Shown: positions 29,074 to 38,426, counted from the first letter of the stretch. The stretch: DNA of 64,000 nucleotides from Dongia mobilis (GCF_004363235.1 NZ_SNYW01000006.1:124001-188000), one strand, 5' to 3'. The notes: a model not told the origin generated them from the sequence alone. Translations and numbers: made by a program.

Positions 29074-29284
29074 CTGTGGCGGTTTCCTGACAATTCTGCT
29101 GACCGACAATGTAGCGGGCGCCATCCCGCATTTCCATCGGCGGTCTTCGCCGCTGCTATGTCGCACGTCACAAATGCCGTATTGCGCCGCTTCTGTGTGT
29201 GGCAGAGGATGTCAATCGCGGGTCCTGCCATGGGGTGGCGTCTGGCCGGCCGCATAGGTGGCAGACGGACAGTTGCACGGAAGC

Positions 29285-30952
29285 ATGGATCAGGATCGGA
29301 CAGGCGAACCGCCCGGGGCCAGCCGCGCACTGCAGACGGCGATGGCGAGCCTTGTGTCGCGCGCGGAGGTGCGGCCTGTCAACAAGGTCGTCGCCGGCCT
29401 CATCCTGCTGATGGCTGTCCTTGCCTGGTACCAGCAGGATGCGCCAATCTCGGGCGCATCCGGGGGCGGGCCGCACCTCGTCGCGACCGATTGCTGGTTC
29501 GAGCCGCCCGAGGGTTTTGTCGTCACCTGCCATCGCCTGCCTGTACCGGAAACGCGGCCGCTTTCTCTGCGCATCGCCGGCGCTCCGGCACCGCGCGACT
29601 TGCTGTTGCCGGTTGTCAGGGTACATGCCAGCACAGTCGCAGAAGGCGAGCCGAAGCCGGACCCGATCGTCTACCTGGCTGGCGGGCCGGGCGACGGCGC
29701 CTGGATCGACCCCGAGCGGATCGGCTGGTGGTGGATGCAGATCGCGGCAAATCCCTGGATGTCGCGCCGCGACCTCATCCTGTTCGACCAGCGGGGATCC
29801 GGCCTGGTACAGCCGCGCATGGATTGCCCCGACGCGACCGAATCGGCCTTGGCCCAGCTATCCATCGCCGACAGCGGCGAGGCGCAGCGCGCACAGCTCG
29901 ACGAGGTCCGGCGCTGCAGCGACTTCGTGCTGGCCAGCGGTCACAACGCTGCTGCCTATACCAGTGTCGACAGTGCTGCCGACCTCCATGACCTGTTCGT
30001 GGCGCTCGACGTGCCGCGCTGGAATGTCTACGGCCTTTCCTACGGGACGCGCCTGGCGCTGGAATACATGCGGGCGTATCCGGACGACATCCGCAGCGTC
30101 ATCCTGGATTCGGTGCTGCCGCCGCAGGCCCAGTTCTACGAGGATGATGCTGCCCATACCGACCGCGCGATCCGCTATCTGGTCGAGCAATGCGCCGCGA
30201 GCGCTGATTGCAGCCGGTCCTATCCCGAGCTCGGCCCGCGCCTGGAGAAGCTGGTCGAGCGACTGAACGGCGACCCGATCCTGGTGGCGCGGCCGCATCC
30301 CGGCGGCAAGGGCGATGTGATGGTGCGGATGGATGGCGAACGCTTCATCTTCCACCTGCATTCGATGCTCTACAGTCGCGACGATATCGAGTATCTGCCG
30401 CGCCTGATCGACGCCTATGAGCGCCGGCACTGGGTCGAGGTGAACGAGGATCTCGACTTCTATGTCCGCAGCGCCGGCGATCGCGCCGATTTCGGCGACG
30501 CCATGTTCGCATCCGTGAACTGTTTCGAAGAGGTGCCGTTCAATGACCTGGTGGCGGCTGATGCGGCCTATGCGCGGTATCGGCTTCTGCGCGGGCTGGA
30601 ACGCGAGCGGGCATGGCAATCCTATGGCGAGAGCTGCGGCATCTGGCGTCGGGCTTTCGGTGTCGAGGAAGTGCGGCCAAGCGATTCAGCGGCGGTGGTG
30701 AGCGATCTGCCCAGCCTGATCCTGACCGGTACCTACGACCCGGTGACGCCGCCGGGCTATGGACGCCTTGCCGCCGCGACCCTGTCCAACAGCCATCTAT
30801 TCGAGTTCGCCCATTACGGCCATGACGTGCTTGGCCATGATTCCTGCGCCAACGAAATCGCGGAAGCCTTCCTCGAGGCGCCGACGGCTGTCCCCGACAG
30901 CGCCTGCCTCGCCGATGGGCAGGCGCCGCGCTTTACCGGTCCGGCGCGATAG
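29285..30952 (+). CDS. Membrane-anchored alpha/beta hydrolase, tripeptidyl aminopeptidase-like
   Basis: A 555-residue hydrolase with an N-terminal membrane helix (VNKVVAGLILLMAVLAWY, about residues 32-49) that anchors or exports it. The alpha/beta-hydrolase fold has DPIVYLAGGPGDGAW as oxyanion region, the nucleophile elbow GLSYGTRLALEY, and a TAP-like C-terminal domain with the acid in LTGTYDPVTPPGYG and the His in FAHYGHDVLG. Relatives release N-terminal tri- or dipeptides or proline, acting outside the cytoplasm. Paired cysteines in CHRLP, CAASADC and the C-terminal DSCANE support export. The start could be the GTG/ATG at 29258, 29285 or 29342; I list 29285. It is divergent from ydbH and convergent with the sensor. 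Confidence 0.86.
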   Translation: MDQDRTGEPPGASRALQTAMASLVSRAEVRPVNKVVAGLILLMAVLAWYQQDAPISGASGGGPHLVATDCWFEPPEGFVVTCHRLPVPETRPLSLRIAGAPAPRDLLLPVVRVHASTVAEGEPKPDPIVYLAGGPGDGAWIDPERIGWWWMQIAANPWMSRRDLILFDQRGSGLVQPRMDCPDATESALAQLSIADSGEAQRAQLDEVRRCSDFVLASGHNAAAYTSVDSAADLHDLFVALDVPRWNVYGLSYGTRLALEYMRAYPDDIRSVILDSVLPPQAQFYEDDAAHTDRAIRYLVEQCAASADCSRSYPELGPRLEKLVERLNGDPILVARPHPGGKGDVMVRMDGERFIFHLHSMLYSRDDIEYLPRLIDAYERRHWVEVNEDLDFYVRSAGDRADFGDAMFASVNCFEEVPFNDLVAADAAYARYRLLRGLERERAWQSYGESCGIWRRAFGVEEVRPSDSAAVVSDLPSLILTGTYDPVTPPGYGRLAAATLSNSHLFEFAHYGHDVLGHDSCANEIAEAFLEAPTAVPDSACLADGQAPRFTGPAR

Positions 30953-30987: not shown

Positions 30988-33087
30988 TCAGACCAGTTCC
31001 GCCCGGCCGCCGTGATTGTCGAGGTAGTTGACCAGGGCGGCGACGACGCGGCGGTCGAACGCCTTGCCGGAGCCCTTCAGCAGGTTTTCGATGGCATCGT
31101 CGATGCTGAGCGCCTGGCGGAAGGCGCGGTCGCTGATCATGCCGATGAAGGCATTAGCGACCGCGATGACGCGGGCCGTCACGATGATGGCGTCGCCGGC
31201 AAGCCCCGGTGGCTGGCCGGTGCCGTCCCAATTGGCCTGGGCCTGGCGCAATGTCTCGACCACGGGGCCGTCGAACTCGATCCCCTGCAGCAGGTCGGCA
31301 CTGGTCTGGATCGAATTCTTGATCATGTCGCGTTCGGCCTCGGTCAGCTGCCCGGTCTTCGAGAGGACGTCCTCCGGAATCAGGATCTTGCCGAGATTGA
31401 GGAGGTTGCCGGCGATCTCGGCGGTCTCCACCTGGACCTCGGTCAGGGCCATTTCCTTGGCGACGGAGCGCGCCACCTTGGCGACACGCGAGGAATGCTG
31501 GGCGGCGAACGGGTCGCGCTTGTCGACCACGTCGACCAGCGTCTTGACCAGCTGGTTCTGGATGCGGGCGCGGCGTTCGCGTTCGGTCACCACATCGGTG
31601 ATGTCGCGCTCGACGGTCAGAACACCCTCGCCATGGCCGGCCGCATCCTTCAGGGGAATGTGCTCGGATTGCACCACCTTGACCTTGCCGTCCTCTTCGC
31701 TGCGGGCGACGTTGGAGACCTCGTGCTTCAGCTCCAGGGCCTCGTGGCTCAGGGTCACATAGCGCTTGGCAGCGGCCGGTCCGAGGACATTGGCGATCGG
31801 CTTGCCGATCATCTCGGTGGTGGGGATGCCGGCCGCCTTGGCGGCCTGGCTGTTGGCGAACTGATAGCGGTCCTGCTTGTCGAGAATGAAAATCTGCGTC
31901 GGCTGGCTGTCGGTCACCAACTGCAGCAGGTTCTTCTGGTTCTCGAACTTGGTCGCCATCTGGGCGAATTGATGCGCGGCCTGGCTGGCGCGGCGCGAGG
32001 ACCCGTGACGCCAGACGGCGATGATGATCACGGCCACCAGGGCGACGGCCAGCAGCAGATAGATGGTAAGGTTGCGGAAGCGCGCCTCGGCGGCACCCAG
32101 CGCCTCGTCGTAATCGATCGTGTAGACCAGCGACCATGGCACCAGGCTGAAGCTGCGGCCGGTCACCAGGACGCGCGTCCCGGCGGCGTTGCGCCGGTCC
32201 GTGGCAAAGGCGCCCGGCCGTTCCGCGGCAAAGGCCGTGTCGAGATTGGGGGTCGAGGAATCGAGTTCCACGGCCATCGGCTTGCCGTCGGCGTCGGGCG
32301 ACAGATAGGTGATCTTGCCGTCCCTGGCGCGCACCAGGGTGGTCCTGGCGCTGACGCTGGCCTCGCCCGGCTGGCGCAGCAGCGGGAACAATTCGCCGGC
32401 CACTTCCTTCACCCCCAGGATGGTGCCGATCTGTGCCGCCTGGCCACCTTCGGATTGTGCCGCCACCAGCGGCACCAGGAAGGCCATGCTGGGATTGCCG
32501 CGGGCATTCAGCGACATGTCGCCGATGGCGCGCTGGCCCCTTGTCTGCGCACTGACAAAGGCGGCGAGTTCCCCGGCATAAGGCGGGGCACCGGGCGAGG
32601 CTGCGACCACATTGCCGTTGTTGTCGATGATCATCAGGCCGGCGGCACCGGTTTCGGCGACGTTGGCCGGCACAGCCCCGCCACTTTCCGGCAGCGTAAA
32701 GCCGGTGCGGTCGGCCGTCACGGTCAGCAGGTTGCGAAGATAGTCGCGCAGCGCGCCGACTTCCTCGGCCATGGTCGGATCGCCGGCCAGTTCGCTGATC
32801 TGGTCGGTATAGATCTGGACCGATTCGTTGCGCGCGAGGCCGCCCAGTTCCTCGAGCTGACGGTTGAGCCAGCGATCCACGTCGGAGAAGCGGCTGTCGG
32901 CGACGATCCCCATGCGCAGCTGCCATTGCGTCTCCTCGCGCTGGCGCTCCTGGTCGACGAAGAAATAGACGGCGATGATGCCGATGATGGCGATCAGCAC
33001 CAGAATGATGGCGGGAAACAGGATCCTCAGGTCGAGGGCGCCCTTTTTGTTGTCTTCGGCGAGGACGGCAGGTGTCGGATCGGCCAC
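30988..33087 (-). CDS. dCache-PAS sensor with degenerate HD-GYP domain
   Basis: A 699-residue membrane sensor. A helix at about residues 21-45 and another at about 348-368 bracket a periplasmic region of about 300 residues, likely a double Cache domain. A PAS domain (about 392-510) follows, then an HD-GYP-like domain (about 515-699). The HD-GYP metal and catalytic residues are gone: LHDIGK reads LLNLGK (562-567), the HHE motif reads AQA (616-618), GYP reads GQP (624-626), and the later Asp of AVAD is Asn645. Parts such as DGTG, ILIPEDVLSKTGQLTEAE and SDRAFR keep the scaffold. It probably binds rather than cleaves a ligand. AGGAG lies 7 nt before the ATG. It is divergent from the LapG-like protease. 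Confidence 0.88.
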   Translation of the reverse strand: MADPTPAVLAEDNKKGALDLRILFPAIILVLIAIIGIIAVYFFVDQERQREETQWQLRMGIVADSRFSDVDRWLNRQLEELGGLARNESVQIYTDQISELAGDPTMAEEVGALRDYLRNLLTVTADRTGFTLPESGGAVPANVAETGAAGLMIIDNNGNVVAASPGAPPYAGELAAFVSAQTRGQRAIGDMSLNARGNPSMAFLVPLVAAQSEGGQAAQIGTILGVKEVAGELFPLLRQPGEASVSARTTLVRARDGKITYLSPDADGKPMAVELDSSTPNLDTAFAAERPGAFATDRRNAAGTRVLVTGRSFSLVPWSLVYTIDYDEALGAAEARFRNLTIYLLLAVALVAVIIIAVWRHGSSRRASQAAHQFAQMATKFENQKNLLQLVTDSQPTQIFILDKQDRYQFANSQAAKAAGIPTTEMIGKPIANVLGPAAAKRYVTLSHEALELKHEVSNVARSEEDGKVKVVQSEHIPLKDAAGHGEGVLTVERDITDVVTERERRARIQNQLVKTLVDVVDKRDPFAAQHSSRVAKVARSVAKEMALTEVQVETAEIAGNLLNLGKILIPEDVLSKTGQLTEAERDMIKNSIQTSADLLQGIEFDGPVVETLRQAQANWDGTGQPPGLAGDAIIVTARVIAVANAFIGMISDRAFRQALSIDDAIENLLKGSGKAFDRRVVAALVNYLDNHGGRAELV

Positions 33088-33143
33088 GTCAAATCTCCTG
33101 GTCCCTGAGTCTGGGGGTCTGTCGAGGTTTTCGAATCAATAGG

Positions 33144-33171
33144 TTGGCAGAAAGTTCGTATTTGGTACATT
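33144..33171 (+). promoter_or_regulatory. Possible promoter for the LapG-like gene
   Basis: TTGGCA (33144-33149) and TACATT (33166-33171) are separated by 16 nt in the 167-nt gap between the divergent sensor and protease genes. The transcription start would be near 33178, giving a leader of about 75 nt. It is a moderate match only. Confidence 0.35.
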
Positions 33172-33254
33172 AGCATGCAGTTGAAGGGCCGCCAATCGGG
33201 GCATTTGCCGTCCGCGGCACAGCGATCCGATGCCGTAACGGAACCGGGGGTTGG

Positions 33255-33911
33255 ATGACGTGGACCGAACGAAGAGCGCGATGCCTTGCCGGGCGCCTGG
33301 CGATCTGGGCAGCCCTGCCGCTCGCTTGCCTTCTGCTCGTGGCACAGCCGGGAACAGCCGAGGCGCGGAAATACCCGAAGATCTTCGGCTCCGTCGAACT
33401 GCCCTCGAAGAACCTCAAGAAGTTTCCGAAATGGCTCGACATGGTGGGCCGCTGGAAGAACGGCCAGCCCTGCGAGTCCGATACCTGCACGGTCAAGGGC
33501 TGGCAGGGTCTGGTCGACAAGCTGAAGGGCATGGACCGGCTGTCCCAGATCAAGGAGGTCAACAGCCTGCTCAATTCCAAGAAATACATCATCGACATGA
33601 AGAACTGGGGGCTCGAGGATTACTGGGCGACGCCCTACCAATTCCTCAAGAAGAACGGCGATTGCGAAGATTACGCTATTGCCAAGTTCATGGTGCTGAA
33701 GGCCATCGGCGTTCCCATCGAGGATATGCGCATCGTGGCGCTGCAGGACCTCAATCTCGGCGTCGGCCATGCCGTGCTGGTGGTCTATGACGGCGACAAT
33801 CCCCTGCTGCTGGACAACCAGATCAAGTCGGTCGTGCCGGCCAATACGGTGAAACATTACCAGCCGGTCTATTCGATCAACGAAAACGGCTGGTGGCTGC
33901 ACCGCAAGTGA
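33255..33911 (+). CDS. LapG-like transglutaminase-type cysteine protease
   Basis: A 218-residue periplasmic cysteine protease of the bacterial transglutaminase-like family (PF06035 type). Residues 1-36 form a signal peptide. The catalytic triad is complete: C137 in NGDCEDYAIAK, H172 in VGHAVLVV and D187 in LLLDNQ. The flanking W124 to L131 stretch and the C-terminal YQPVYSINENGWWLH match LapG. LapG cleaves large surface adhesins when released by the c-di-GMP receptor LapD. No LapA-like adhesin or LapD of standard architecture lies in the window. The neighbours instead encode a degenerate HD-GYP sensor (divergent) and a degenerate GGDEF-EAL-like protein (142 nt downstream). Confidence 0.88.
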   Translation: MTWTERRARCLAGRLAIWAALPLACLLLVAQPGTAEARKYPKIFGSVELPSKNLKKFPKWLDMVGRWKNGQPCESDTCTVKGWQGLVDKLKGMDRLSQIKEVNSLLNSKKYIIDMKNWGLEDYWATPYQFLKKNGDCEDYAIAKFMVLKAIGVPIEDMRIVALQDLNLGVGHAVLVVYDGDNPLLLDNQIKSVVPANTVKHYQPVYSINENGWWLHRK

Positions 33912-34052
33912 CGCGCGCGCCGGTTTTCCCCGGCCCGTGCCATATCAGCCGCGACAGAATCGCCCAAGCCCGCTATGATTCATAGTTAAGGAAAGGTTTC
34001 CCAGCGGCCGTCCCGGCCGTGTTCTGGAAATGCTGGATATGGGTGTCGGGGG

Positions 34053-35249
34053 ATGAGTGAACGGGGGCGCAAGGCCAGCGACGAAGAGATGCTGGTCGAT
34101 TTCGTCGAGCGTTTGGAAAGACATAAAACCGGTCGCCGCGCCGTGCAGATTCATCTGTCGCAGCTGCGCCCCTATCACCTGCGTCCGCATCACCTGCGCA
34201 TCGCGCGACAGGTCCTCGAACCCCTGGTGCACCGGTTCGAGGCGGCGATCTTCCAGCTGTGGAACAACGATCTCGTCGTGTTGACCAAGGGGGCAAGCGA
34301 GGATGATCTCGATGTCTCGATCAAGGACGTGAAGAACCTGTTCGCCCGGGATCCCCTGTTTTCGGCCCCGCCGGGCAGCAGCCGGTCGGCGCCCTTCTGC
34401 GATTGGTATGACGTCGAGGTAGACTGGCAGGCGCTGGTCGACCTGTGCCGCGGCCACAACGAGGCCCGGCGCAAGGCCGCTGCGCAGAGCAACAACAAGG
34501 CCGCCACCGAGGCCGCGATCGGCCCGGCCATCCTCGAAAAACTCGAGAACGCCATCGCCAAGGCGGATCTCGCCAACATTCTGCGGCGGCAGCAGGTCTT
34601 CGCCATCATCCCCGGCGCCAAGCCGGCCCCCATCCTGACCGAACTGTTCTTCTCGATGCCGTTCTTGGCCCAGACCGTGGCCCCGGGATACAACGTGACC
34701 GCCGACAAGGCGCTGTTCCAGCATTTGGCGCGGGTGCTCGATGCGCGCATGCTGGCGCTGATGCCGCGGCAGGATTACCTGCCGATGCTGAAGAACGCCA
34801 GCCTCAACCTGTCGCTGGCGACGGTGCTGTCGCAGGAATTCCTCGAATTCGACCGCGCCACCAACAACAAGGATCGGGGTCCGCTCGCCATCGAATTGCC
34901 GGCGGTGGATTACTTCAGCGATCCGGACGATTTCGTCTTCGCGCGCAACTTCCTGAAGGAGCGCGGCTACAAGATCATTCTCGACCAGGTGAAGCACGAA
35001 TTGCTGCCGATGCTTGATCGCAACCGCCTCGACGTCGACCTCATCAAGGTCATCTGGTCGCAGGCCTTGTTCGACGATTGCAGTGGCGACCAGGCCGAGG
35101 AAATGCGCAGTGGCATCGACCGCTTTGGCCGCGAGCGCGTGATCCTGTGCCGGGTCGATGCGGAAGAGGGGGTCGAGATCGGCCAAAAGGTGGGGCTGAC
35201 CCTGTTCCAGGGACGCCTGCTCGATGCGATGAGCCAGGGCAAGAGCTGA
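34053..35249 (+). CDS. Soluble protein resembling a degenerate GGDEF-EAL tandem
   Basis: A 398-residue protein without signal peptide or membrane helix. I read it as two worn-down cyclic-di-GMP domains. Residues 28-100 follow the GGDEF fold, with LWNND (69-73) where RxGGDEF should be. Residues 175-395 follow the EAL fold: RQQVFAI, TELFF (196-200, in place of EAL), LNLSLATVL (251-259, matching the NLS segment), IELPAVD (280-286), ERGYKIILDQ, DVDLIK (327-332, matching VDxIKID) and FQGRLL near the end. None of the enzyme metal ligands is clearly kept, so it would be a binding protein at most. Residues 133-175 are a charged helical linker. Fold assignment is by eye and needs structure prediction. 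Confidence 0.6.
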   Translation: MSERGRKASDEEMLVDFVERLERHKTGRRAVQIHLSQLRPYHLRPHHLRIARQVLEPLVHRFEAAIFQLWNNDLVVLTKGASEDDLDVSIKDVKNLFARDPLFSAPPGSSRSAPFCDWYDVEVDWQALVDLCRGHNEARRKAAAQSNNKAATEAAIGPAILEKLENAIAKADLANILRRQQVFAIIPGAKPAPILTELFFSMPFLAQTVAPGYNVTADKALFQHLARVLDARMLALMPRQDYLPMLKNASLNLSLATVLSQEFLEFDRATNNKDRGPLAIELPAVDYFSDPDDFVFARNFLKERGYKIILDQVKHELLPMLDRNRLDVDLIKVIWSQALFDDCSGDQAEEMRSGIDRFGRERVILCRVDAEEGVEIGQKVGLTLFQGRLLDAMSQGKS

Positions 35250-35342: not shown

Positions 35343-38300
35343 CTATTCCATCAGGCGGCGCCACCAGCCACGCTTCTTCGGCTGATCGTCCGCCTGCCCG
35401 CCGGCTGCTTCGGTCTGCAGTTCCGGTGTCGCTGGCGGCGCCGAAGATGCAGGCGCGGCGGCCAGCGCCGGTTCCGGTGTCGCCGCCACGGCCTCATCCG
35501 CCTCCGGCAGATCGGCTGTTTCTTCGCGCGGTCGGCGCGGCCGGCGGGTCCGGCGCGGCTTCTCGTCGGCGGCGGCAGTCGCCACCGCATCTTCGCCTTG
35601 GGTCACTGCCACACTCGGCGCAGTATCCGACGCGGCATCGGCCGCAACGCCATCGGTGGGTGTGCTGCGCCATTGCGGCGGCAGCGCCGCCGCATCCGCG
35701 GGCAGGTCGGGTTGTTCGCCATCGCCGGCGACCCGCGACGCAGCCGCCTCGCCATCAGCGCCGGCAGGTGCCTGGCCCTCGGCCGCCATCTCGTCCTGGC
35801 CGCGGCGCGACCGGCGCCGGCCGCCGCGGCGGCCGCGGCGGCGGCGGCGGCGGGTCTCTTCACCCTCCGTCGCGGCAGTATCCGCGCCATCGTCGTCGTC
35901 CTCGCCATCCTCGCTTTCGACCTCGGACTGGCCTTGCTCCGCTCGCTGGCTTCGGCCGCGGGGCGCTTCGCCCTCGGCCTCGCCCGAACCGGCGCGGGCA
36001 TCGGCGTCGCTCTCCTCCTCGCCGCCATCCACCTCGCCGGTGGCTCCCGGCTGCTCGGTGAAATCGTCGGCTTGCAATCGCCCGCCGCGGCCGCGCCGCC
36101 GGCGCCGCCGCTTTCCGCGACCCTGGCCGCGATCGCTGCCTTCCTCCTCGCCGGACTCGGTCTCGTCCGCCGCTTCGGCCGCTGTGGCGTCGATTTCCTC
36201 CGCTTCCTCCAGGATCTCTTCGTCCGCATCGTCGTCGAAATCGACATCGATCACGGCCGGCAGCGGCGCCGGCGGCAGTTCTTCGCCGGGGGCCAGCTGC
36301 TTGATGCGCTCGAGGCGGTAATCCGGCGGCGTCAGGCTGTCATCGGCCGTGAGATAGATGCGGACACCGCGCCGGAGTTCCAGCTGCGCCAGGGCCTGGC
36401 GCTTCTGGTTCAGGATGAACAGAGCCACCGCCGCCGGCACATGCACCGTGACGCCCGGTGTCGGATGGCGGGTGATGTCTTCCTCGACCATGCGCAGCAC
36501 ATGTAGTGCCGTTGAATCGACCGAACGGACGCGGCCGCTGCCGTGGCAATGCTGGCAGATCTCGGTCGAGGCTTCCTGCAGGCTGGCATGCAGCCGCTGG
36601 CGCGACATTTCGAGAAGGCCGAAGGAGGAGATGCGGCCGATCTGGATGCGGGCGCGGTCGTTGCGCAGCGCGTCCTTCATGCGCCGCTCGACCGCCGCAT
36701 TGTTGCGGCCCTCGTCCATGTCGATGAAGTCGATGACGATGAGGCCGGCAAGATCGCGCAGGCGCAACTGGCGGGCCACTTCGTCGGCAGCCTCCAGATT
36801 GGTGCGGAGCGCCGTCTCCTCGATATTGCGCTCGCGCGTGGCGCGGCCGGAATTGACGTCGACAGCGACCAGGGCCTCGGTCTGGTTGATGACGATGTAG
36901 CCGCCCGATCGCAGGGTCACGACCGGATGGTGGATCGCAGCGATCTGGCTTTCGATCTGGTAGCGCTGGAACAGCGGCAGCGACGGGTCGCGGTAGAACT
37001 GCACGCGCTTGGCATGGGCCGGGGCCAGCATGCGCATGAAGGAGCGCGCCGACTTGTAGGCCTCGACGCCGGCCACCATGATGTCGCCGATGTCCCGGGT
37101 ATAGAGATCACGGATCGAGCGCTTGATCAGGCTGGCCTCTTCGTAGATGAGCGCCGGTGCGGTCGAACGCAGGGTCGTCTCGCGGATTTCGTCCCACAGG
37201 CGCAGCAGGTATTCGAAGTCGCGCTTGATCTCGCTGCGCTGGCGCTCCATGCCGGCCGTGCGGACAATGACCGCCATGCCTTCGGGCGGATCCAGATCGT
37301 CGACGATCGACTTCAGGCGCTTGCGGTCGGCCACCGAGGTGATGCGGCGGGAAATGCCGCCGCCGCGGTCGGTATTGGGCATCAGCACGCAATAGCGGCC
37401 GGCCAGCGACAGATAGGTGGTGAGGGCAGCGCCCTTGTTGCCGCGCTCCTCCTTGGTCACCTGGACGAGGAGTATCTGCCGGCGCTTGATGACTTCCTGG
37501 ATCTTGTAGCGGCGCAGGTGACGTTGGCGGCGGCGGCGGGCGGAATCGTCATCTTCCTCGGCGTCGTCATCCTCTTCCTCGGCGGGCGGCGCCTCGCCAC
37601 CCACGGTATCGATGACTTCCGGCGGCTGCGTCACCTCGACGATGTCGCCGCGCGCGACGGGCGGCAATTCGCCATCGCCGGCAAGGTCGGCCGGCGTTTC
37701 CGGCGCTTCTTCGGTATTGGTTTCGGATGCTACCGGCGCGCTCTGCAGGGTGTCGTGATGGACCGCAAGCGGCATCACGCTCGGCCCCTGTGCCGGCGCC
37801 CCGGCATCGGCATCCGCATCGGCCGCATCACCCGTGGCGACGGTTGCTTCGCCAGCCGCCGATTGCGTCGGGTAGGCAGCTGGCACCGCCGGATGCGCCG
37901 GCCAGGATTCCGCCGGCAGGACGGGCCAGGTTTCGGCGCTTGTCGCCTGGTCGGGTGCCACATCCGGCACCTCGTCGGATCCGGGAGCCGGCGCGGCCTC
38001 GGCATCGGTGCCGGGCTCGGAATCAGGATGGGAACCCGGATCGCGGGGCCATGGCTGGCCAGCATCCTCACCGTGATCCTTCCCGTCTTCGGGAACTTCC
38101 ACATCCGGCGCTTCGGTCTCGACCTCTTCGGCCTCGGCCTCCTCGATCTCCTCGCGCAGGAGGGCTTCCCGGTCGGCGACCGGGATGCGGTAATAATCCG
38201 GATGGATTTCGCTGAAGGCGAGGAAGCCGTGCCGGTTGCCGCCATATTCAACGAAGGCGGCCTGCAGCGAGGGTTCGACCCTGGTTACCTTGGCGAGATA

Positions 38301-38426
38301 GATATTGCCCTTGAGGGGGTGCCGGCTGGCGACTTCAACATCAAATTCTTCGAGCTTGCGCCCGTCGACCACCGCGACTCGGGTTTCCTCCGGGTGGGTG
38401 GCGTCGATCAACATGGTTTTGGTCAT
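35343..38426 (-). CDS. rne: Ribonuclease E
   Basis: A 1027-residue Rne/Rng endonuclease that starts mRNA decay and matures rRNA and tRNA. The S1 RNA-binding domain begins at residue 37 (LKGNIYLAKVTRVEPSLQAAFVEYGG) and is split after SEIHPDYYRIP by an acidic, Pro/Ala-rich insertion of about 200 residues, typical of alphaproteobacterial RNase E. The catalytic Asp lies in LIVIDFIDMDEGRN. The zinc-link is CQHC in STEICQHCHGSGRVRS near 632. The C-terminal 300 residues are disordered, with acidic blocks and Arg-rich blocks (RRRRRRG, RRRSRRG) that bind RNA and degradosome partners, and a conserved KKRGWWRRLME end. Its 515-nt upstream region may hold an autoregulatory leader. Confidence 0.96.
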   Translation of the reverse strand: MTKTMLIDATHPEETRVAVVDGRKLEEFDVEVASRHPLKGNIYLAKVTRVEPSLQAAFVEYGGNRHGFLAFSEIHPDYYRIPVADREALLREEIEEAEAEEVETEAPDVEVPEDGKDHGEDAGQPWPRDPGSHPDSEPGTDAEAAPAPGSDEVPDVAPDQATSAETWPVLPAESWPAHPAVPAAYPTQSAAGEATVATGDAADADADAGAPAQGPSVMPLAVHHDTLQSAPVASETNTEEAPETPADLAGDGELPPVARGDIVEVTQPPEVIDTVGGEAPPAEEEDDDAEEDDDSARRRRQRHLRRYKIQEVIKRRQILLVQVTKEERGNKGAALTTYLSLAGRYCVLMPNTDRGGGISRRITSVADRKRLKSIVDDLDPPEGMAVIVRTAGMERQRSEIKRDFEYLLRLWDEIRETTLRSTAPALIYEEASLIKRSIRDLYTRDIGDIMVAGVEAYKSARSFMRMLAPAHAKRVQFYRDPSLPLFQRYQIESQIAAIHHPVVTLRSGGYIVINQTEALVAVDVNSGRATRERNIEETALRTNLEAADEVARQLRLRDLAGLIVIDFIDMDEGRNNAAVERRMKDALRNDRARIQIGRISSFGLLEMSRQRLHASLQEASTEICQHCHGSGRVRSVDSTALHVLRMVEEDITRHPTPGVTVHVPAAVALFILNQKRQALAQLELRRGVRIYLTADDSLTPPDYRLERIKQLAPGEELPPAPLPAVIDVDFDDDADEEILEEAEEIDATAAEAADETESGEEEGSDRGQGRGKRRRRRRGRGGRLQADDFTEQPGATGEVDGGEEESDADARAGSGEAEGEAPRGRSQRAEQGQSEVESEDGEDDDDGADTAATEGEETRRRRRRGRRGGRRRSRRGQDEMAAEGQAPAGADGEAAASRVAGDGEQPDLPADAAALPPQWRSTPTDGVAADAASDTAPSVAVTQGEDAVATAAADEKPRRTRRPRRPREETADLPEADEAVAATPEPALAAAPASSAPPATPELQTEAAGGQADDQPKKRGWWRRLME

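Follow-up and report, generated by a model that had tools for sequence, protein, structure and literature searches.

In a 64-kb stretch of Dongia mobilis DNA (the window, to the whole of which all coordinates refer; genome ~ 4.2 Mb in 14 contigs), a membrane sensor gene and a LapG-like protease gene stand back to back, and with good confidence we read them as an alphaproteobacterial DvhD/DvhG pair in which an HD-GYP receptor restrains an adhesin-cutting protease. DvhD of Desulfovibrio vulgaris is a dCache-PAS-HD-GYP receptor for cyclic di-GMP (c-di-GMP) that lacks metal ligands, controls the LapG-type protease DvhG and stands in for LapD (PMC13090378); earlier work, as cited in that paper, reconstituted the Dvh system in Pseudomonas fluorescens. 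The sensor gene (30988..33087, minus strand) is a complete open reading frame (ORF) of 699 aa, separated by a 167-bp intergenic region (33088..33254) from the complete protease ORF of 218 aa (33255..33911, plus strand), and a third complete ORF of 398 aa (34053..35249, plus strand), 141 bp 3′ of the protease gene, encodes a soluble degenerate GGDEF-EAL protein that is a candidate accessory component. An earlier sequence-only reading of this DNA had described the same three adjacent genes, all of which were recovered complete at the expected positions, and had suggested a possible variant surface-adhesion switch. The receptor-protease core of that suggestion is supported, but it is less novel than supposed, the wiring being already known from Desulfovibrio in the published Dvh system. 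Its wide spread among Alphaproteobacteria may be novel, as may the additional soluble GGDEF-EAL protein of Dongiales; the main text of PMC13090378, its class-level distribution figure aside, makes no mention of Alphaproteobacteria or Rhodospirillales.

A sensor gene linked to a LapG-type protease gene

Sensor and LapG genes were present together in all 17 genomes of the order and were adjacent on one contig in 16, the two genes of G007 lying at two contig ends. The divergent order is conserved, and the core stays in place while the outer flanks, which in the window are an alpha/beta hydrolase gene (29258-30952, plus strand) and an RNase E gene (35343-38426, minus strand), differ between genera. 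Co-conservation across relatives, which the sequence-only reading had proposed as a check, was found for the pair in every one of these genomes, while the third gene is missing in two of the 17. Among 80 named relatives from Rhodospirillales-like lineages, LapG adjoins the sensor gene in 61; nine of the other 19 are interrupted by a contig end, leaving 61 of 71 uninterrupted. In a survey of 289 genomes of the class Alphaproteobacteria, LapG-type proteases were found in 37 of the 43 genomes with a sensor compared to 80 of 289 overall (Fisher p = 2e-18), and 30 of the 44 class sensors lie at most 1.5 kb from LapG, 27 of these divergently. A chance arrangement of the locus is ruled out because it is conserved in relatives. 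At one surveyed locus (L192:7950-10076) the sensor ORF is split in two, by a frameshift or an assembly error.

The sensor consists of a transmembrane helix (residues ~ 20-43), a periplasmic dCache domain (~ 44-335), a second transmembrane helix (~ 338-358), a PAS domain (~ 385-497) and an HD-GYP domain without metal ligands (~ 510-695). Sequence searches placed PAS and HD_5 above the Pfam cut-offs and dCache_1 below, and the AlphaFold 2 model (mean pLDDT 86.9, pTM 0.53) matched the crystal structure of the DvhD dCache domain. A phmmer search of the PDB with the sensor as query returned the PAS/HD-GYP fragment of DvhD (9rc0) on top at E = 1.4e-44, with the best HD-GYP domain from any other protein at E = 1.9e-22. 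Structure comparison of the sensor model put the three solved DvhD fragments first, each in its own region: the HD-GYP domain at Z = 26.2, the PAS/HD-GYP fragment at Z = 26.1 and, for the periplasmic domain, 9rc2 at Z = 21.2, where the next periplasmic match reached Z = 17.8. The dCache, PAS and C-terminal HD-GYP domains are thus homologous to those of DvhD by sequence and structure together.

The protease, which has a hydrophobic N-terminus, scored 66 bits with Peptidase_C93 (BTLCP; cut-off 27) and matched the NCBIfam LapG model at a score under the equivalog cut-off, and the closest solved proteases are LapG-type (4fgo, 4u65). The triad C137-H172-D187, already described as intact and LapG-like in the sequence-only reading, does not vary among 15 orthologues from the order, and neither do D136 and E138, which match by position the calcium-site residues of DvhG mutated in PMC13090378. 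A LapG-fold protease with a C-H-D triad and calcium-site residues therefore adjoins the receptor, and it is the single C93 protease found in the D. mobilis genome. LapD_MoxY_N (PF16448) gave no match there at E ≤ 1, in a search whose sensitivity was not demonstrated, no control genome having given a positive over the cut-off. This agrees with the earlier view that no LapD of standard architecture is present, and the arrangement that would have spoken against the suggested switch, a canonical LapD beside a second LapG, was likewise not found in this genome. Because of the three-domain homology to DvhD, the lack of a detectable LapD, the single C93 protease and the presence of adhesins with LapG-type sites, the sensor is very probably a LapD substitute for the LapG-like protease, and by the same homology its periplasmic part could hold the protease, as had been proposed. 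Extra LapG paralogues, some of them closely paired, were seen in some Dongia relatives (L112, L113, L114, L115, L116), and two LapG copies adjoin the sensor gene in G004.

The soluble GGDEF-EAL-like protein

By sequence, the soluble protein gave only a sub-threshold EAL match, and searches of the PDB returned nothing useful with the single sequence and one weak EAL match with a profile. Its predicted model (pLDDT 83.4) matched EAL domains, that of LapD first and tied with others (Z 17.1), and aligned with GGDEF-EAL tandems over residues 1-392. The GGDEF half is shrunken and its hairpin degenerate, N71 being invariant. In the EAL half, E197 (placed by eye), N252, E281, D311, K332 and Q386 are retained, but in essentially all 15 sequences DDFG is without its second D and AEGVE without its glutamates. 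The third gene thus encodes GGDEF and EAL folds in tandem whose catalytic sites have degenerated, in agreement with the decayed tandem that had been read from the sequence.

Its product probably has an accessory role, as a partner protein or through binding c-di-GMP, and it is treated as accessory because the family is mostly unlinked to LapG across the class, with six of 51 places checked lying near LapG. This, together with the absence of the gene from two genomes that have the pair, leaves the idea that it relays c-di-GMP unsupported so far. That the gene rides along as a passenger, serving another function outside the switch, which would be compatible with our reading of the other two genes, stands only a little below an even chance. 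Its absence from G004 and G016, the occurrence of the family in 74 of 289 class genomes, mostly away from LapG, and an association with LapG genomes that is not significant (p = 0.10) all point in this direction. Set against them, in 15 of the 17 order genomes the gene is co-linear with the pair, on the same strand and directly 3′ of the protease gene despite the changing outer flanks, and the family is associated with sensor genomes (p = 0.0005). We regard it as possible, but on balance doubtful, that two dead c-di-GMP proteins govern the LapG of Dongiales together, with the soluble one feeding or gating the DvhD-type receptor in the membrane. No description of a two-receptor adhesin switch was found in the Lap or Dvh literature and, were such a switch confirmed, the DvhD route would be a main form of LapG control in Alphaproteobacteria.

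The soluble family is widespread in Alphaproteobacteria (L018, L307; e.g. G018 C17, G062 C3, G186 C17, G281 C4), and genomes of 1.2-1.9 Mb often have two tandem copies, mostly away from LapG. A second, more distant GGDEF-EAL-like paralogue with 31% identity over the EAL half occupies a 464-aa frame elsewhere in the D. mobilis genome (L040/L019, C5), away from LapG, and a further EAL-like ORF (L193:5749-7023) is split in two by a frameshift or an assembly error.

Proposed receptor input and candidate adhesin substrates

In the sensor, the HD pair is replaced by L563/N564, the HH pair by A616/Q617 and the D of VADxFD by N645. In an alignment of 56 sensor sequences, the HD positions are never H or D (the second is N in 54 and S in 2), the HH pair occurs in none, and the VAD aspartate is N in 56/56; DvhD likewise carries VANAF at this site. 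The HD and HH metal-binding motifs which, with GYP, mark an HD-GYP phosphodiesterase are therefore missing, and as judged from these residues the domain is dead as an enzyme, in line with the sequence-only reading. Equivalents of the nucleotide contacts in the DvhD structure (PMC13090378) are largely kept, namely R524, L581 and R654 (each 56/56), M650 (50/56), P571 (52/56) and the aromatics at 527 (53/56) and 656 (49/56), so that the domain is plausibly, though not certainly, a nucleotide receptor. A different reading appears unlikely, namely that the receptor does control the protease but takes its dominant input from a periplasmic ligand of the dCache domain, with the HD-GYP domain serving only for structural dimerisation and no longer binding nucleotide. 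In its favor, no metal ligand is left, some of the DvhD contact positions have changed, and many structural matches of the periplasmic domain are ligand-binding chemoreceptor domains. Small-ligand binding is common among dCache domains. Against it stands the conservation of R524, L581, R654, M650 and the two pocket aromatics across 56 sequences, and DvhD still binds c-di-GMP without metal ligands (PMC13090378).

Candidate substrates were sought by family and protein searches, and their sites were compared with the published LapG consensus of a helix, DP and [T/A/P]AAG (PMC13090378). The RTX-type adhesin with a TAAG-like site and type I secretion system (T1SS), the search for which had been suggested from the window alone, was found in the D. 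mobilis genome. A 1668-aa adhesin of this genome, with a FecR/retention-like N-terminus and RTX and cadherin repeats, is encoded between TolC, ABC and HlyD genes. In FecR-type adhesins of the order (that of D. mobilis and nine related), TAAG directly follows the domain in 8/10, compared to 0.12 expected by shuffling. A second retention-type N-terminus, first met in G004, is present in 11/17 genomes of the order, and the modules of this type that were fetched have TAAG in 28/30, mostly as DPxLDIxTAAGP, which fits the LapG consensus; a [TAP]AAG count of 29/30 was inflated by a downstream PAAG, reading of the sites giving 28 TAAG, one VAAG and one sequence that ends after TAA. D. mobilis has three second-type copies with the full consensus site DPNLDIQTAAGP (DPNLDIQTAAG), one of them belonging to a protein, at least 2890 aa long, that contains VWA, cadherin-like and RTX domains; 3′ of its gene lie a methyltransferase gene, an ABC transporter gene whose product has a C39-like domain, and an OEP gene. 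The candidate substrate peptides of the protease are AATDPNLDIQTAAGPAAG and the variant GDFALAAGGDG. In one relative (L238), a FecR adhesin with FETAAG is encoded at the same locus as LapG and the sensor; when an adhesin near the pair was sought in the 80 relatives, only this locus and L233, which is without TAAG, were found.

The NCBIfam model retention_LapA gave only matches below its cut-off, mostly to FecR-domain proteins, and served as a lead only. A supposed adhesin locus (L109) was dropped as a wrong-frame ORF, and RTX repeats alone were discarded as substrate evidence, random large RTX ORFs of the order being mostly without a TAAG site. Near-identical adhesin N-termini were seen at the ends of three D. 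mobilis contigs (L308, L309 and L310 on C12, C4 and C2), and the adhesin copy number in this genome is uncertain, with assembly breaks probably within repeated adhesin genes. A CHASE2-guanylate/adenylate cyclase gene, possibly a further regulator, adjoins the FecR-type adhesin gene in D. mobilis (L107:16422-19076, C4), and another in a relative (L233:10760-13051) adjoins an adhesin and the sensor-LapG locus.

Several observations weigh against a DvhD/DvhG-like adhesin switch. The DvhD contact Y621 corresponds to Q625 or is variable, the R569 and E668 positions are not conserved and K582 is often not basic; the site of the D. mobilis FecR adhesin reads GDFALAAGG, with LAAG rather than TAAG; the adhesins of this genome are unlinked to the pair; and three genomes that have the pair (G012, G015, G016) gave neither type of TAAG adhesin. 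In addition, HvyA, the BTLCP most thoroughly studied in Alphaproteobacteria, governs capsule rather than an adhesin (PMC4241560). The last two points could mean that the protease acts chiefly on another envelope target, as HvyA does in restricting capsule, and cuts TAAG adhesins incidentally or never, which we consider improbable given that TAAG right after the retention module is far above chance, that one relative has a TAAG adhesin adjoining the pair and that the nearest solved proteases are LapG-type. Least credible by a wide distance is an active HD-GYP phosphodiesterase that neighbours the protease by coincidence, for although the HD_5 Pfam match is well over the cut-off, HD, HH or VAD ligands are kept in none of the 56 sequences and the receptor-LapG linkage is class-wide.

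For the DvhD/DvhG-like switch that we favor, nucleotide binding, receptor-protease contact, adhesin cleavage and an adhesion phenotype are inferred by analogy with the Dvh system. The receptor would span the inner membrane and, as its homology to DvhD suggests, its HD-GYP domain would bind c-di-GMP without hydrolysing it. The binding signal would travel along the PAS/helical stalk and through the membrane helices into the periplasm, where the dCache domain, if it behaves as in DvhD, would then restrain the protease so that adhesins stay anchored. On a fall in c-di-GMP the freed protease would cleave large type I-secreted adhesins at a DP...TAAG-type site that directly follows their N-terminal retention module, and the cut adhesins would be released from the outer membrane.

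Comparison with known systems

Many Alphaproteobacteria have a LapG-type protease, but for HvyA, the most thoroughly studied of these, no membrane receptor is known. The present analysis supplies a concrete candidate receptor for about half of the LapG genomes (37/80), together with two families of candidate substrates whose presumed cleavage sites are spelled out, and a third protein of interest. It also indicates that the Dvh wiring is not confined to sulfate reducers, since linkage and conservation of its genes extend to several lineages of Alphaproteobacteria.

HvyA of Caulobacter crescentus (PMC4241560) and the protease described here are both alphaproteobacterial BTLCP proteins with a signal sequence and a C-H-D triad. 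HvyA lies in a capsule export locus, with reported control by cell-cycle expression, whereas the protease gene here is not within such a locus and adjoins a membrane receptor gene, its other neighbors being the GGDEF-EAL-like, RNase E and alpha/beta hydrolase genes. The soluble protein resembles the cytoplasmic modules of LapD and FimX in the match of its EAL half to the LapD EAL domain and in its GGDEF-EAL tandem alignment, and unlike them has no membrane part.

With the LapD/LapG/LapA system of P. fluorescens, the locus shares a LapG-type protease with a C-H-D triad and calcium-site residues, an adhesin cleavage site after the retention module, a T1SS and the proposed inside-out control by c-di-GMP. 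It differs in that no LapD_MoxY_N domain was found in the D. mobilis genome and in that the receptor combines dCache with HD-GYP, where Lap has the LapD periplasmic domain and GGDEF-EAL.

Compared to Dvh of D. vulgaris (PMC13090378), the host here is alphaproteobacterial, receptor and protease genes are transcribed divergently, the adhesins and T1SS are in several copies and unlinked to the pair in D. mobilis, a soluble GGDEF-EAL-like gene follows the protease gene, some DvhD nucleotide contacts are lost, and the protease looks secreted whereas DvhG has a transmembrane helix. The two systems have in common a dCache-PAS-degenerate HD-GYP receptor homologous in all three domains, a LapG-fold protease gene adjoining the receptor gene, and adhesins with a retention domain, a TAAG-type site, RTX repeats and, in one case, a VWA domain.

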